Source: a virus
IMG/VR virus record: IMGVR_UViG_3300047319_002371
Location: 1-40,322 of that record
Direction: 5' to 3' (one strand)
DNA length: 40,322 bases
Numbering within the stretch: position 1 is the first letter of the stretch; each line of letters opens with the position of its first letter. Below, in pieces: positions 3,889 through 12,455 of the stretch. Both the position numbers and the translations under genes were made by a program. The notes under the pieces were generated by a model that ran no database searches, was not told the origin of the DNA, and saw only the letters and a list, made by a program, of their open reading frames with translations.

Positions 3889-5089
3889 CGGCGACGACAA
3901 CGCAGCTAGCGCCTTTCAGCGCGCGATCGATCCGGCTCAGAGCGCCAGCGAGCAACCTGCGCAGCGTCAGCCGGCGACGCGGGCTCGCGATGATGGCGGC
4001 CGGTTCGCCGCGGTCGCGGAGCGTCCGACGCCGTTGTTTGAGATGCGGGTCGTTGAAGGCGATCCGGAAACCGGAGACACCAGCGACGGCGGGGATGACA
4101 CCCGCTTGCGCGATCGCGAGAGAGGAATAGCAGATGGCTGGATTGACGAGAGGCAAGACCGCGAAGCTCAATCACGATCCCGCCAAGCGCCCGCCCAAAC
4201 TGAAGGGAAGAGTGGCGAACGACCTGTACAGCCAGACAACGACGAGGAGCGCGATGCTGCCGCCGCCGACGACGGACACGCAGGAGCCGAGGATGAGCCG
4301 GAAGGCGAAGACGCCGTCGATGAAGAGGATGAAGAGCCGCAGTATGAGATAACCGTCGACGGCCAACCGACCACGGTTTCGCTTGGCGAGCTCCGCGACG
4401 GTTATATCCGTACGGCGACATTTCACTCGCGCCTGAACAAGGTCAACGAGAGCCGCGCTGTCGTTGATCAGGAGAACGCGCGAGTCGCTCAACTGCGCGA
4501 CCTCTACGTCAGGGGGCTGCAGTTTCTCGATGAAGACCTTCGCCAGATGTCGCCTCCCGAGCCGAATTGGGATGAGGAATTTGCGCGGGATCCGCAAGGG
4601 GCTCATCTCAAGCAGAAGGGCTTCCAGAATTTTCACAACAAGCTCGCGCTGATCAGGCAAAACAGAGCCTGGGCGATCCAGAATGGGCGTGAGGAGAACG
4701 ACCGGCGCAGCGCGCAATATGCGTCGGAGCAGTTTACACAATTCGTCCAAGATCATAATAAGCTGATCAAGGACGAGCCATCACTGCGGCGAATCATCGG
4801 CGGGATGCGGCAGACTGCATTGGCCGAGGGGTTCAACGAGCAGGAGGTGGCCGGTGTGTACGACAAGAGGATGCTCAATATCCTTTTGAAAGCGCACCTC
4901 TACGACCAAGGGATGGCGGTAAGACCCCAAGCGGTCATCTCTGGTAAAGGCAAGGCGTTGGTACCCGGTTCCGCTAGGCCCATTAATGGGAGTGCAGGAC
5001 GCCGGAACATCGACGAAGCCCAGCGACAACTCGCTCGCACAGGAAAGATGGAAGACGCCGAAGGCTTCTTCCAGAGGCTTCTCAGATGA
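3881..5089 (+). CDS. Scaffolding-type head assembly protein
   Basis: A 402-residue protein with a disordered, very acidic first half (Asp/Glu-rich about residues 115-150), then VDGQPTTVSLGELRDGYIRT (about 155-175), a segment recurring in phage scaffold proteins, then long helical heptad-like regions. Scaffolds line the prohead during capsid assembly and are lost or cleaved before packaging. The position directly before the major capsid gene supports the call. Base composition falls towards the 3' end (from about 4690), continuing into the capsid gene. There is no protease domain, so it does not look like a protease-scaffold fusion. Confidence 0.8.
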   Translation: MADGDDNAASAFQRAIDPAQSASEQPAQRQPATRARDDGGRFAAVAERPTPLFEMRVVEGDPETGDTSDGGDDTRLRDRERGIADGWIDERQDREAQSRSRQAPAQTEGKSGERPVQPDNDEERDAAAADDGHAGAEDEPEGEDAVDEEDEEPQYEITVDGQPTTVSLGELRDGYIRTATFHSRLNKVNESRAVVDQENARVAQLRDLYVRGLQFLDEDLRQMSPPEPNWDEEFARDPQGAHLKQKGFQNFHNKLALIRQNRAWAIQNGREENDRRSAQYASEQFTQFVQDHNKLIKDEPSLRRIIGGMRQTALAEGFNEQEVAGVYDKRMLNILLKAHLYDQGMAVRPQAVISGKGKALVPGSARPINGSAGRRNIDEAQRQLARTGKMEDAEGFFQRLLR

Positions 5090-6412: not shown

Positions 6413-7011
6413 TGAGCGTGAGCTATAGCCAATTCCAGCAGGAGGTCGCTCTCCAGGTGTTGAAGTTCCGTTGGTATTCCACGGTCGCCAATCCGACTCC
6501 CCCGGCCGCGGTCAACGCCGAGCTCAACGCTATTTCGACGGCGTTGGCGAGCGATACGACAACGCACGACGAGACGATTGAGAATCCAGCCTCAACTGCG
6601 GTGCAGTTCGGCAATCTCGCCAATACCGACTTCACCGACCTGATCCTCTATCATGTCAACAAGGGCAAGGCCGGCAATCTCAGCAACGCCACGATGGCGC
6701 AGGCGATCGACGGCGTCACTGGGGCCCTGGCGCCTCCGGGCGTGGTCGATGTTCCCTTTCTCTACGGCGTACCGCCTTACGCCAATGGTTCGGTGCTCAC
6801 CTGTACGCAGGGCAATTGGCTTGGCACGCCGACCACTAAGAACTACCAATTTCGCCGTGACGGGGTGAACTTTGGATCAAATTCGACCACCTCGACCTAC
6901 ACCATCGTCACCGCGACGGATTCCGGCCACAGCATCGATTGCGTAGTCACGGCAATCAACGGGCAAGGTTCGACCATAGCGCCGGCTTCCAACGCGATAC
7001 GGATTCCGTGA
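6412..7011 (+). CDS. Ig-like domain virion protein
   Basis: A 199-residue protein. Residues about 1-110 are helical and unrecognised. Residues about 118-199 form an Ig-like beta sandwich of the phage type: GSVLTCTQGNW, YQFRRDG, then DSGHSIDCVVTAING with the two Cys expected of the fold. Such domains decorate capsids or tails and can bind carbohydrate loosely. The position right after the capsid genes favours a head decoration or head-tail completion protein. The ATG overlaps the previous stop by one base (TGATG). Confidence 0.75.
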   Translation: MSVSYSQFQQEVALQVLKFRWYSTVANPTPPAAVNAELNAISTALASDTTTHDETIENPASTAVQFGNLANTDFTDLILYHVNKGKAGNLSNATMAQAIDGVTGALAPPGVVDVPFLYGVPPYANGSVLTCTQGNWLGTPTTKNYQFRRDGVNFGSNSTTSTYTIVTATDSGHSIDCVVTAINGQGSTIAPASNAIRIP

Positions 7012-7184
7012 TGACTCAGCTTGGCGTTGAGACGATAGGCGCACTCAAGTCCTCCCCCTTGTTGCTCGTCGTCGTGGTTCTCAACGCCGGGATGATTTTT
7101 GCGCTGCTGTGGGTCGCGAACGTGCAGCGAGATGAACGTCAGACGCTGACCCGGATGCTGATCGACTGCGGAAAGGCGCCATGA
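7011..7184 (+). CDS. Small single-pass membrane protein
   Basis: A 57-residue protein with one strong hydrophobic helix (SSPLLLVVVVLNAGMIFALLW, about residues 14-34) followed by a charged tail and a single Cys near the end. It begins at a TGATG overlap with the previous gene. Small proteins of this layout occur in virion gene clusters of alphaproteobacterial phages and prophages; they may assist lysis, but no family can be proven here. Confidence 0.7.
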   Translation: MTQLGVETIGALKSSPLLLVVVVLNAGMIFALLWVANVQRDERQTLTRMLIDCGKAP

Positions 7185-7185
7185 C

Positions 7186-7437
7186 ATGTGCGGGTTTGGA
7201 ATCGGTACGATCTTTCAGGTGGCGATCTTCGTTATCGTCATCCTGGTTGTCCTGGCGCTGCTTCGCGTTCTGCTCGGTGGCTGGTTTGAGAGCATCACCA
7301 GCGCGCCTTACTGGAACATCATTCAGATCGTCATCGGCGGCGTGGTTGCGATCCTCATTCTGCTGTTCCTCTGGCGTCTCGCTGAGTGTGCGGGCGTGTT
7401 TGGCCGGGTTGGGCTGGCGTCGGTGGGGCTCGCATGA
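7186..7437 (+). CDS. Small two-pass membrane protein, possible holin
   Basis: An 83-residue protein with two hydrophobic helices (about residues 8-30 and 43-66) separated by an amphipathic loop with Trp. It starts one base after the previous gene and its stop overlaps the adaptor ATG (ATGA). The topology fits a holin or an accessory membrane protein. Three small membrane proteins (1-159, 7011-7184 and this one) compete for the holin role in this window; the sequence alone does not decide. Confidence 0.7.
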   Translation: MCGFGIGTIFQVAIFVIVILVVLALLRVLLGGWFESITSAPYWNIIQIVIGGVVAILILLFLWRLAECAGVFGRVGLASVGLA

Positions 7438-8060
7438 CCGACTTCTCCGACTTCATCGCTCAGATCAAGGAATGGCAGAATCGCCAAGACTGGTCGGACG
7501 CGCTCGCGACGTCTTTTGTTCGGATGAGTGAACAAAAGTTCAACGCTGAGCTCCGCGTCGGCCGGATGATTCAGACTGATGACGGTCTGATTGCCGCGCG
7601 GTGCGCGCCATTGCCGGATGACTGGATCGAGATGAGCCTGGTTAGGCTCGCCAACGTTTCGACGCCGACGGGATTCTATCCGATCCATTACCGGCCGCGT
7701 GACGAGTTTTTCAAGCTGCCCGACAAGTGGTCAAACGGCTTCTACACGATCGAGGGTCGCCAGATTTTCTTCGGCGGGCCGCCGGATGCGACTGAAGGCC
7801 AGACGGTCAGGATCTCATACTACGGCGAGGTTCCGGTCTTCTCGGACGACCAGGACAGTTGGATCTACACCAAATACCCGAGCCTCTATCTCTCGGCGGC
7901 GATGATGCACGCGTACATGCACGCGGTTGGCGAGGAGCAGTCCGCGGCGATGGCGAAGCAGCTGGTCGAGGATGGGATTGCAAAGCTCAATGCTGAGTGG
8001 GCTTACGCCAAGGCGAGCGGCTCGCGGCTGACGCGGACGATGAGGAGGAGCTTTGGATGA
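7434..8060 (+). CDS. Head-to-tail adaptor protein, SU10 type
   Basis: A 208-residue protein with the pattern of SU10-like adaptors: a helical start (DFSDFIAQIKEWQNRQDW), FVRMSEQKFNAELRVGRM, a beta region around FYTIEGRQIFFGGPPD with VRISYYGEVPVFSD, and a C-terminal helix after YPSLYLSAAMMHA. Adaptors of this type dock on the portal ring and join it to the tail nozzle in short-tailed phages. The start ATG overlaps the previous stop. Together with the SU10-type capsid it makes a podovirus virion likely. Confidence 0.82.
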   Translation: MTDFSDFIAQIKEWQNRQDWSDALATSFVRMSEQKFNAELRVGRMIQTDDGLIAARCAPLPDDWIEMSLVRLANVSTPTGFYPIHYRPRDEFFKLPDKWSNGFYTIEGRQIFFGGPPDATEGQTVRISYYGEVPVFSDDQDSWIYTKYPSLYLSAAMMHAYMHAVGEEQSAAMAKQLVEDGIAKLNAEWAYAKASGSRLTRTMRRSFG

Positions 8061-8131
8061 AGCTCTTCTTCTTCGCGCTGGCGCTGATGTTTGTTACCGC
8101 GATTCCGGCGCAAAAAGGGAGCTTCGCATGA
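8057..8131 (+). CDS. 24-residue signal-peptide-like ORF
   Basis: ATG at 8057 overlaps the adaptor stop and its own stop overlaps the ATG at 8128, both by ATGA. GAGGAG lies about 9 bases upstream of the ATG. The peptide is a Lys followed by a hydrophobic stretch and an AIPAQ end, resembling a bare signal peptide with nothing behind it. It may be a real micro-peptide that carries ribosomes to the next gene, or the leftover start of a secreted protein like its two downstream neighbours. Confidence 0.45.
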   Translation: MKLFFFALALMFVTAIPAQKGSFA

Positions 8132-8928
8132 GACGTCGTGACATCCTTGGCGGTATTGCCGCGCTCATTCCTGCCCGCGCGCTGGGGGCAACCGTTCTTT
8201 CGACGTGCGGTACGGCGAACTACACTGCGGGAACGCCTGGGAATTTGACAGTCGATACTACTGGGGCTGTGTGTGTCAGCGGCAGCGGGTCTGGCGGCGC
8301 GCCGAGCGCGCCTACAACCGTCTGGTCCGCCGCCGACGCCACCGCCAACGGGTTCGCGTTGTCCAACGGCGGGCTGACAGTTACGGTCACGACGGGAGCG
8401 CTTGTCGCGTGGCGAATGATCAGGGTCACGACAAGCAAGACATCTGGTAAATATTATATAGAAACGCTTATTCTCGCGACGCCAACGGCGTCCAGTCATG
8501 TCGGATTGGCGTCAAGCGGGGTTAATATCGCTACATACCTTGGGTCTACCAACTACTCGTTTGGTTGGGCGCCCGCTGGCAACGTATTCAAAAGTGCGGG
8601 CTTTACCGGGCCAGATGCGGCAAGTCCGGTCGGATCGGCAGCGGGTCCTCCCCTTGTTCTAGGACTGGCTGTCGATTTTACCTCGAATAAGGTTTGGGTC
8701 GCGTACAACAATATTTGGTTGACTCCCAGCGGCGGCGGCGCCGGCGATCCCGCTTCTGGAGCCAACCCGACCACAACTTTCGATCCGGTCATGGTCGGGC
8801 CGTTGTTCTTCGCCATGTCGTTCGGCGTGCCAGCGCTCAGAACAACTTCTGATACTTGGACCCTCCAACCCACGGGCGCTACCCAGGCATTCGCCCCTCC
8901 AGCGGGATTTACACCATGGGACGGATGA
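8128..8928 (+). CDS. SPRY-like tail-region protein with Tat-like signal
   Basis: A 266-residue protein. The N-terminus has three Arg and a hydrophobic stretch ending ARALGA (residues 1-21), resembling a twin-arginine or Sec signal. A module with two Cys follows (C27 and C49, LSTCG...VDTTGAVCVSG). Residues about 65-265 read as a SPRY/B30.2-type beta sandwich: SGKYYIET, SSHVGLAS, YSFGWAPAGN and VLGLAVDFTSNKVWVAYNN. SPRY-like folds in phage tail genes are usually recognition domains. The next gene shares the Cys module. Why a virion protein would carry an export signal is unclear; it could be secreted from the infected cell instead. Confidence 0.65.
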   Translation: MRRRDILGGIAALIPARALGATVLSTCGTANYTAGTPGNLTVDTTGAVCVSGSGSGGAPSAPTTVWSAADATANGFALSNGGLTVTVTTGALVAWRMIRVTTSKTSGKYYIETLILATPTASSHVGLASSGVNIATYLGSTNYSFGWAPAGNVFKSAGFTGPDAASPVGSAAGPPLVLGLAVDFTSNKVWVAYNNIWLTPSGGGAGDPASGANPTTTFDPVMVGPLFFAMSFGVPALRTTSDTWTLQPTGATQAFAPPAGFTPWDG

Positions 8929-10058
8929 TCCTTTTCGCCGCTGTCGTCGTCGCGCTTTTCTGGAGCGGCTCGTCGGCCTATGCGCAGCAGGCCAATGTAG
9001 TGAGCGCTTGCGGCTCGGCGGCTCCATTCGGCTCTCCGGCCCCCGGCGGATCGTTCTTCCCTGCTGTCGATCCTGGCGGCGGGCTTTGCCTTTCCGGCGG
9101 CGCGTTAGGGGCAAAAACCGCCATTTTGTTTTTGAATACGGGTGAAAGCAACGCCGACGGCAGGGGATTAATGACCGACGCCTTGCCTGTCGATAAGTTG
9201 CCGGGGGCGCGATTGCAGGTTTTTTACAGCAATTTATTTACGCCGTTAGCGATCGGCGTCAACAATAGCGCTGATCCTACCAACTATTTCGGCTGCGAAC
9301 TGGGCTGGCTGTCCGCCGTTAATGCCGGTCGGGTAGGGACGGTCCCGGTTTTCTTGCTCAAAGCGGGCTTTGGCGGCACAAAGATCGCTCAATTCGCCCC
9401 CGGCGACGCCTCTGGCATCTGGACCACCATTGTCATCAATTACAACAACGCGATCACGCAGATCAAAAGGCAAGGATACACCAACGTCACGACCGTTGTG
9501 ATGTACTCGCAAGGGATCAACGACGCCCTTGCCGGAACCCCGGTTGCAACGTGGACGACGGCGACGCAGAATTATTTCGCCACCCAGCTGCGCCCGCTGG
9601 TCGGGGCAAATTCGCTGATCATTATGAGCAAATTTTCCGCCGCCTACGCGACGTACAACGCCGCGATGGACAACATTGCGGCAGTTGACCCATTGACCAA
9701 GACCATCTTCGGCGACGACGGGTTGTGGCAAGGCGACGGCGCTCATCGGACTTACGCCGGGTATCGGCAATGGGCCGAAGAATACATGGACGCTTGGCTT
9801 TTGCCGTCTGGGCAAAGCCCCGTTCCGGCGACTGCGCCTGCTGGCGGCAGCGGTTTTGGAACCGGGACGGTCACAGTGACGATCACGCCGGCCCAAGGGG
9901 AGGATGTCTATTACTCCACCGACGGTTCAGACCCTTTGACGGCGGCGAAGAAATATACGGGTCCGTTCACCGTCACCGCGCCAGCGACGGTCAAGGCGCG
10001 CGGCGTTCTATTTAACAAGGCGTCATCGACAATTGTTACTAACGCTTATGGAAGTTAA
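8925..10058 (+). CDS. SGNH / sialate-O-acetylesterase-like enzyme with chitobiase-type C-terminal domain
   Basis: A 377-residue protein. Residues 1-20 form a signal peptide ending AYA; a Cys-pair module follows (C29 and C55). Residues about 65-295 match carbohydrate esterases of the SASA/SGNH type: GESNADGRG (block I, nucleophile Ser75), YSQGINDA (block resembling QGxxD), and GDGAHRTYAGYR (Asp271/His274). Residues about 316-375 resemble the CHB_HEX C-terminal domain (VYYSTDGSDPLTAAKKYTGP). Such enzymes remove acetyl groups from surface sugars, so it may be a tail decoration or secreted enzyme modifying host polysaccharide. The start at 8925 (ATGA overlap) is preferred over the ATG at 8916. 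Confidence 0.75.
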   Translation: MILFAAVVVALFWSGSSAYAQQANVVSACGSAAPFGSPAPGGSFFPAVDPGGGLCLSGGALGAKTAILFLNTGESNADGRGLMTDALPVDKLPGARLQVFYSNLFTPLAIGVNNSADPTNYFGCELGWLSAVNAGRVGTVPVFLLKAGFGGTKIAQFAPGDASGIWTTIVINYNNAITQIKRQGYTNVTTVVMYSQGINDALAGTPVATWTTATQNYFATQLRPLVGANSLIIMSKFSAAYATYNAAMDNIAAVDPLTKTIFGDDGLWQGDGAHRTYAGYRQWAEEYMDAWLLPSGQSPVPATAPAGGSGFGTGTVTVTITPAQGEDVYYSTDGSDPLTAAKKYTGPFTVTAPATVKARGVLFNKASSTIVTNAYGS

Positions 10059-10069
10059 GAGGCAGGAAA

Positions 10070-10438
10070 ATGACCGGCTTATCCTCAGCGGGCGAGACCG
10101 CAACCCTCGCGCCCCTCACCACAACCTGTTATGTCTCATTGCACACGGCCGATCCGCTTGATACCGGCGGCAGCGAGGTGACGGGCGGCTCTTACGCGCG
10201 TCAAGGGCCGGTCGCCTACACCAACACCGGCAATAACCCGACAACCGCCAGCAACACCGCGATTATCACCTATCCGGCGGCGACGGCGGCGTGGGGGACG
10301 GTCTCTTACTTCGGCGTCTGGACGGCGGCCTCGGGCGGGACATTCCAGGGCTCGGGCGCGCTAGTCACGCCGAAGCTGGTCAACTCGGGCGACACCGCGC
10401 GCTTCCCCGCCGGCGCGCTGACGATTACGGCGCAATGA
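10070..10438 (+). CDS. Minor tail or fibre protein, Gp80-like
   Basis: A 122-residue beta-rich protein with YVSLHTADPLDTGGSEVTGG followed by SYARQ, a pattern seen in small phage tail-fibre proteins (Gp80-like), and a C-terminal part describing a jelly-roll-like sheet. AGGCAGGA sits just upstream of the ATG. It opens the fibre cluster 10070-13079. The role in the fibre (adaptor or base) is inferred. Confidence 0.65.
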   Translation: MTGLSSAGETATLAPLTTTCYVSLHTADPLDTGGSEVTGGSYARQGPVAYTNTGNNPTTASNTAIITYPAATAAWGTVSYFGVWTAASGGTFQGSGALVTPKLVNSGDTARFPAGALTITAQ

Positions 10439-10835: not shown

Positions 10836-11462
10836 CACCTTAAACTACGGATGGACCAAACCCGTTGTCGGTGGTGACGCCGATGCTTGGGGCGGCGAGA
10901 TCAACACCAACTTCGACGGCATCGATTCGACCGTCTTCGCCAAGCTGTCTGACGCCAGTACGGGCGGCGCATTCTACGGCCGCAAGAGCGGCGCATGGGC
11001 GCAGCCCGACCATACCGCCATCACCGACTGGGCGGCGACGCTCGCCCCCTATGCGCTGACCACGGCGCTTTCGAGCTATCTGCCCCTGACCGGCGGCGCT
11101 CTCAGCGGCGGCCTCGTCGTTGGCGGGCCGGCTGATCTCAAGACGCAAACCGTTACCCAATCGGGCGCGGCGCTCGCGATCAATCGGACGCTGGGCGAAA
11201 ACTGCACGCTGTCGCTGACGGCTTCGATTACGGGTGTAACGGTAACGGGTTGGCCTGCGTCTGGCATAACAGGGAAGGTGCGCCTGATCATCGCCAACAC
11301 CGGCGCGTTCTCGATTGCTGGCTGGCCTGCTGGGACGATCTGGCCGGGCGGGACGCAGCCGACGATCACCTCGGGCGCGGGCAAGAAGGACATCGTTCTG
11401 CTGATGTCCGACGACGGCGGGGCGACCGTCTACGGCTCGGTGGTGGGGCAGGATTATCGCTG

Positions 11463-11463
<1 letters not shown>
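10828..11463 (+). CDS. Tail fibre protein
   Basis: A 211-residue protein. The N-terminus (YGWTKPVVGGDADAWGG then EINTNFDGIDSTVFA, about residues 7-37) is a known type of phage fibre attachment segment and is paralogous to the start of the collar protein at 12459. A collagen-poor shaft (YLPLTGGALSGGL, about 85-97, common in fibre shafts) precedes a beta-rich C-terminal head. It overlaps both neighbours by a few bases. Fibre is confident; the receptor is unknown. Confidence 0.75.

Positions 11464-12455
<992 letters not shown>

Follow-up and report, generated by a model that had tools for sequence, protein, structure and literature searches.

The particles and tail parts of tailed phages are taken to be made and assembled in the cytoplasm. 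The portions of the literature consulted on signal peptides in tail proteins do not describe fibre proteins with signal peptides as a class, and the nearest reports concern bacterial proteins: as far as the consulted portions of these papers go, phage-fibre-type folds were reported for secreted or envelope-acting proteins, i.e. Pantoea WceF (PMC7949094) and the chimeric fibres of Bdellovibrio (PMC10769870). Concerning gene order, the structural cluster described here can be likened to that of the Ralstonia podophage GP4, SU10 and LUZ24-like phages, with the same adaptor and Gp80 order. Its nearest isolate is the Ochrobactrum phage vB_OspP_OH, whose major capsid protein (MCP) is 64% identical; this phage has no genes between the adaptor and the Gp80-like protein, whereas a cassette coding for two proteins with predicted export signals is present there in the DNA analysed here.

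The window, that is, the whole 40.3-kb virus contig under analysis, originates from a soil phage and carries portal, scaffold, MCP, SU10 adaptor, Gp80, collar and ejection genes, the pair being located among its tail genes. No integrase was found among the window proteins scanned. Its MCP is up to 98% identical to those of IMG/VR contigs. In most relatives where Gp80 was found, its gene begins 0-14 nt after the adaptor, vs. 2 kb in the window. Since this gap is filled in the window and absent in most relatives, the pair represents an insertion at a variable site; and because most relatives do without it, it counts as an accessory, not as a core part of the tail. Before the adaptor, two small ORFs with hydrophobic membrane segments (6939-7184 and 7186-7437), candidate holin or lysis genes, have homologues in relatives. 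The features of the locus are the following.

7386 to 8060, plus strand: SU10-type adaptor gene, directly upstream of the cassette, with no export signal
8057 to 8131, plus strand: 24-aa ORF, MKLFFFALALMFVTAIPAQKGSFA followed by a stop, putative remnant signal peptide of a small first gene "a" (DNA alignment with a-genes)
8128 to 8928, plus strand: protein 1 ORF, 266 aa, with twin-arginine-like signal, Cys module and SPRY domain
8128 to 8190, plus strand: predicted export signal of protein 1, MRRRDILGGIAALIPARALGA, inside a ~74-nt insertion relative to the ancestral gene
8191 to 8286, plus strand: Cys module of protein 1, with C27 and C49 (profiles and alignment)
8314 to 8925, plus strand: SPRY (B30.2-like) beta-sandwich domain of protein 1 (AlphaFold2 model, Foldseek, signal-less homologues)
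8925 to 10058, plus strand: protein 2 ORF, 377 aa, with Sec-like signal, Cys module, SASA-type SGNH esterase and CHB_HEX_C/Fn3-associated domain
8925 to 8984, plus strand: predicted Sec-type signal peptide of protein 2, MILFAAVVVALFWSGSSAYA (sequence, rule-based scan)
8988 to 9098, plus strand: Cys module of protein 2, with C29 and C55 (63% identity to the L097b module; E=1.1e-6; aligned with L100b)
9126 to 9797, plus strand: SASA (sialate/carbohydrate acetylesterase-like) domain of protein 2 (Pfam PF03629, 4.7e-10)
9858 to 10049, plus strand: C-terminal CHB_HEX_C_1 / Fn3_assoc domain of protein 2 (Pfam, 1.7e-11 / 1.1e-11)
10070 to 10438, plus strand: Gp80 (podophage GP4 fibre I) gene, flanking the pair downstream

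The ORFs of proteins 1 and 2 are joined by an ATGA overlap. A ribosome site is clear at start 8128 (AAAAAGGGAG) and weaker at start 8925 (GGGACGG); wrong start sites were considered and dropped, since 8128 has both a clear ribosome site and an ATGA overlap, and signal peptides recur in the relatives. Protein 1 begins with MRRRDILGGIAALIPARALGA^TVLSTCG and reads MRRRDILGGIAALIPARALGA-TVLSTCGTANYTAGTPGNLTVDTTGAVCVSG; its signal is twin-arginine-like, with a visible RRxIL motif and an Arg in the c-region, and no Tat profile match was reported for it in Pfam or NCBIfam at E<=0.1. As for protein 2, it begins with MILFAAVVVALFWSGSSAYA^QQANVVSACG, a classical Sec-like signal, reads MILFAAVVVALFWSGSSAYA-QQANVVSACGSAAPFGSPAPGGSFFPAVDPGGGLCLSGG, and possesses a third cysteine, C124. 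Its SASA domain covers residues 68-291, including the GESN nucleophile motif (S75) and DGAH (D271/H274). The SPRY domain of protein 1 was modelled with a pLDDT of ~70 and matches PDB SPRY structures with target-normalised TM values of ~0.6-0.7. The preliminary description of this DNA had proposed two adjacent ORFs with signal-peptide-like starts, a shared Cys-pair module (C27/C49 and C29/C55) and, beyond it, SPRY-like and esterase domains. All of this holds: AxA-type signal ends are kept by the relatives, the module is borne out by profiles, shuffles and alignment, and the two domains by Foldseek (E ~1e-7) and Pfam SASA, respectively. Single-sequence scans of IMG/VR with protein 1 or protein 2 gave no match, and a PDB sequence search with protein 2 gave none that was significant. 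Among isolate phages, no match was found to protein 1 or to the small a-protein, and merely weak partial matches to protein 2 and L034b.

The module follows the export signal in both proteins and is ~32-40 residues long. When either N-terminus is shuffled with its composition kept, the module pattern, V[VL]xxC[GA]...[DN]xxGxxC, turns up in about 1e-5 of the shuffles; chance was dropped as an explanation of the match on this frequency and on the profile results. A profile built without both window sequences matches protein 1 at E=6.5e-5. Protein 2 was matched weakly by the early profile (E~0.06), at E=1.1e-6 once the closer relative L097b had joined it, protein 2 itself being left out, and at 7e-9 with L097b alone, whose module is 63% identical. 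Only V3, C7, G26 and C29 are invariant among 20 aligned copies. Every copy found, in the window and in 14 further contigs, stands behind a signal peptide. Pfam, PHROGs and NCBIfam do not contain the module, and no copy was met in two scans of 84,980 genomes of bacteria and archaea. AlphaFold gave at most a weak hairpin for the 37-aa module (pLDDT 55, pTM 0.24).

Module-alignment scans of IMG/VR revealed at least 14 further contigs carrying a gene pair, a and b: L034, L058, L083, L084, L085, L086, L092, L093, L097, L100, L105, L106, L107 and L108. L034 and L058 first came from an MCP scan; other locus numbers repeat some of the 14 contigs, and some b genes are cut by the contig end. Gene a codes for a signal peptide and the module, to which a Pro-rich or charged tail is usually added (73-96 aa), with the exception of the 48-aa product of L097, which is a bare module with no tail. 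Gene b codes for a signal peptide, the module and a variable receptor-binding-type domain. Most pairs overlap by ATGA or GTGA, and in L097 gene b begins just past a. In the podophage contigs, the pair is placed after the adaptor. L100 is a different phage type, with Erf- and RecE-like genes; as it has the pair too, the pair has moved between phage types. Behind the module were found SPRY (window, L083 and L086), a domain LamG-like by appearance (L034 and L058), a 10-Cys domain (L084, L085, L092, L093 and L105-L108), a fibre containing additional Cys pairs (L097), an adhesin-like region rich in glycine (L100b, phrog_863) and the esterase (window). SPRY also occurs with neither signal nor module in L012, L025, L061, L064 and L039, which makes signal plus module an add-on to a fibre domain. 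By eye, the window ORF 11457-12455, glycine-rich, adhesin-like and devoid of a signal peptide, resembles the post-module region of L100b. The a/b cassette and its module have no entry in the libraries searched; the fold families themselves are known. The profile search of phage contigs, with its 14 additional cases, and the invariance of both cysteines in the 20 copies support two points of the preliminary description, namely that these residues should be conserved if meaningful and that a disulfide-type cap module has been reused; the conflict it saw with cytoplasmic virion assembly is also upheld.

The 24-aa ORF at 8057-8131, missed in the preliminary description, overlaps the protein 1 gene by ATGA and would be what is left of a third cassette member, upstream of the other two. 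It was compared with L034a, MKHLFFVLALVFVTSAHGQ, and the window was aligned at the DNA level with the a-genes of L034, L083, L097 and L092. Positions 8057-8112 match the start of the a-genes; ~74 nt are inserted next, after which an a-type module resumes. The insertion closes the old frame with a stop and supplies a ribosome site, an ATG start and the twin-arginine-like segment that now heads protein 1. Judging from this alignment, the window has lost gene a and kept its predicted signal peptide, and the ancestral Sec-like signal is replaced by a putative twin-arginine-like one. The exchange of one signal sequence for another, with a signal still present, speaks for selection acting on export. 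The broken gene a also indicates that the full cassette is not essential.

These a-genes bear on the idea of a lysis cassette, in which the Pro-rich a-protein would work in the manner of an outer-membrane spanin, with the b protein as a passenger. The a-proteins are small, predicted to be exported and Pro-rich like Rz1-type spanins, and putative holin-like membrane ORFs and an endolysin-like ORF are found upstream of the adaptor. Against this, the copies share no lipobox consistently: Thr or Pro frequently precedes the first Cys, whose partner does not vary. Besides, the window retains just the signal peptide of a, and L097 has the bare module; a lysis function is therefore very improbable. 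Lipoprotein or spanin identity was rejected separately, as the lipobox [LVI]-x-[AGS]-C is absent from the h-region end and the pre-Cys residue is A, S, T or P. In the b-proteins, the first Cys lies well past the AxA site.

Export signals were called by rule and eye (n-region charge, hydrophobic h-region, small residues at -3/-1), and both window proteins and their relatives show these properties, with AxA-type ends right before the mature start in nearly all module-protein copies. A rule-based scan with no Cys filter found signals in 13 of 183 fibre-zone ORFs vs. 8 of 732 ORFs outside this zone, and these 8 include several transmembrane proteins. The cysteines tell a similar story: their number in the mature protein, which ranges from 2 to 22, is even in 28 of the 29 complete signal-peptide proteins vs. 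24 of the 79 Cys-containing signal-less fibre-zone proteins (Fisher 1.9e-10, on a sample that is not independent). Some members of this set were first spotted in a scan requiring two Cys, most of them being also found in the unfiltered one. When collapsed to about 13 families, 12 of 13 are even. The sole odd exception is protein 2 of the window, with three Cys; the complete b-proteins of L106-L108, found later, have 10 each. An even-Cys preference was described for exported proteins of Gram-negatives (PMC7678975). A high Cys content does not always go with a signal, since the related spike of L081 has no signal, yet holds 16 Cys.

A rule-based call does not separate a short anchor from a signal, and the N-termini could be uncleaved membrane anchors or virion-binding helices, with an incidental Cys module, an alternative also raised in the preliminary description. 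The AxA-type ends, found immediately ahead of the mature start in almost every copy, the non-homologous replacement of this segment in the window, and the Cys invariance and parity, which fit an oxidising compartment, make it improbable. Real export of both proteins, as predicted from their sequences, is instead supported, on the grounds that SPRY occurs with or without the cassette, that the signal was replaced in the window and that Cys counts are even.

Other proteins of this phage group also bear putative signal peptides. Large spike-like proteins with signal peptides are found in L034, L083, L086 and L097, and their N-termini have no match in isolate phages. These signal peptides (L083:7318, L086:3782, L097:4923 and L034:13013) keep a Cys just before the AxA site, in the contexts AAGC, AASC, ATSC or AAIC followed by AVAQ, AYAQ or AHAQ, and may be either Sec/SPI signals or a loose lipobox with lipidation. 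Long signal-peptide proteins were also found in the fibre zone of L006 and L020. Upstream of the adaptor, L006:11075-11440 (121 aa) and L026:11101-11496 (131 aa) code for small signal-peptide proteins with exactly two mature cysteines, a predicted second family of small exported phage proteins. In L097, where four signal-peptide genes are close together, a 114-aa signal-peptide protein with two Cys (4277-4621) lies between gene b and the spike. Finally, sister phages possess signal-peptide proteins of ~240 aa with a C-terminal PEP-CTERM/exosortase motif (Pfam PF07589, above the gathering score), the candidates being L042:4297-5016, L045:4366-5088, L052:1527-2237 and L055:15-734. In L042 and L045 these genes precede the major capsid gene by several kb; the literature search gave no paper in which "phage-encoded" and "PEP-CTERM" were paired. 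From these sequences, the group appears to direct several of its proteins to the envelope of the host.

The spike-like proteins are relevant to another explanation, i.e. that proteins 1 and 2 are true tail fibres maturing in the periplasm: they would be exported for disulfide formation, wait there and dock on progeny at lysis. The pair's genes lie between adaptor and fibre genes, the signal-peptide spike-like protein is the only big spike seen in the clusters of L083, L086 and L097, a related N-terminal region starts the signal-less spike of L081, and fibre domains are shared with signal-less proteins. P22 tailspikes are able to join particles in vitro, which counts in the same direction. Docking would require a site that binds the virion; proteins 1 and 2, however, are devoid of the N-terminal "(N)YGWTKP..G...TWG" region of signal-less fibres, most relatives do without the pair, and the consulted portions of the literature offer no precedent for post-lysis docking. 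We regard this explanation as possible but rather unlikely; the broader proposal that a tailed phage routes part of its fibre set via Sec/Tat and Dsb, lets it fold in the periplasm and joins it to particles only at lysis, assembly being split over two compartments and the cassette being a portable tag, is slightly less likely still and is put forward tentatively.

Probably, the pair is instead a mobile "export-and-cap" cassette, in which a signal peptide and a one-disulfide module precede receptor-binding or glycan-active domains acting outside the cytoplasm. This is drawn from gene order, overlap, module homology, Cys invariance, signal replacement, domain sharing and cysteine parity, and the window proteins would most likely be produced late in infection and act outside the cytoplasm, locked by a disulfide, in glycan binding or deacetylation. 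Against the export-and-cap cassette speak the signals, judged by rule and eye, with no Tat profile match for protein 1; in addition, the tail-gene location suggests a virion role, which such a cassette does not need. Its predicted part (actual export, disulfide, ligand, enzyme activity and biological benefit) would run as follows. Both proteins would be made together with the late tail genes and transported into the oxidising periplasm, by Sec for protein 2 and by Tat or Sec for protein 1. The signal would be lost there and the module cysteines would pair via the Dsb system. Acting outside the cytoplasm, on the envelope first and in the surroundings after lysis, protein 1 may bind a surface glycan or other ligand and protein 2 may strip acetyl groups from surface polysaccharide. 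They may stay free or join virions at lysis. As a benefit, the producing cell or its debris would stop capturing phage, or neighbouring cells would become accessible.

The presence of the cassette on fibre-type domains would imply either a two-compartment assembly route or secreted phage proteins editing the host surface; the preliminary description had offered periplasmic assembly, secretion that modifies the host surface and mere reuse of the cap as readings, each of which may hold. Through the sequence of the module, such proteins can be looked for among phage genes that lack annotation. As compared with known systems, the best Foldseek match of protein 1 is the tail fibre of Burkholderia phage AH2, of the same SPRY/B30.2 fold (BFVD, E 2.5e-10); unlike known phage tail-fibre SPRY domains, the one described here follows an export signal and a Cys module, both lacking in sister-phage homologues. 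Protein 2 shares its domain and the GESN and DGAH motifs with SASA-type carbohydrate O-acetylesterases (PF03629), from which its enzyme activity is predicted, but it differs from them in carrying the phage Cys module and in sitting among tail genes. As for WceF and the Bdellovibrio fibres, likened here by description only and from the consulted portions of the reports, they are encoded by bacterial genes, whereas the proteins of the window are encoded by phage genes within a tail cluster.
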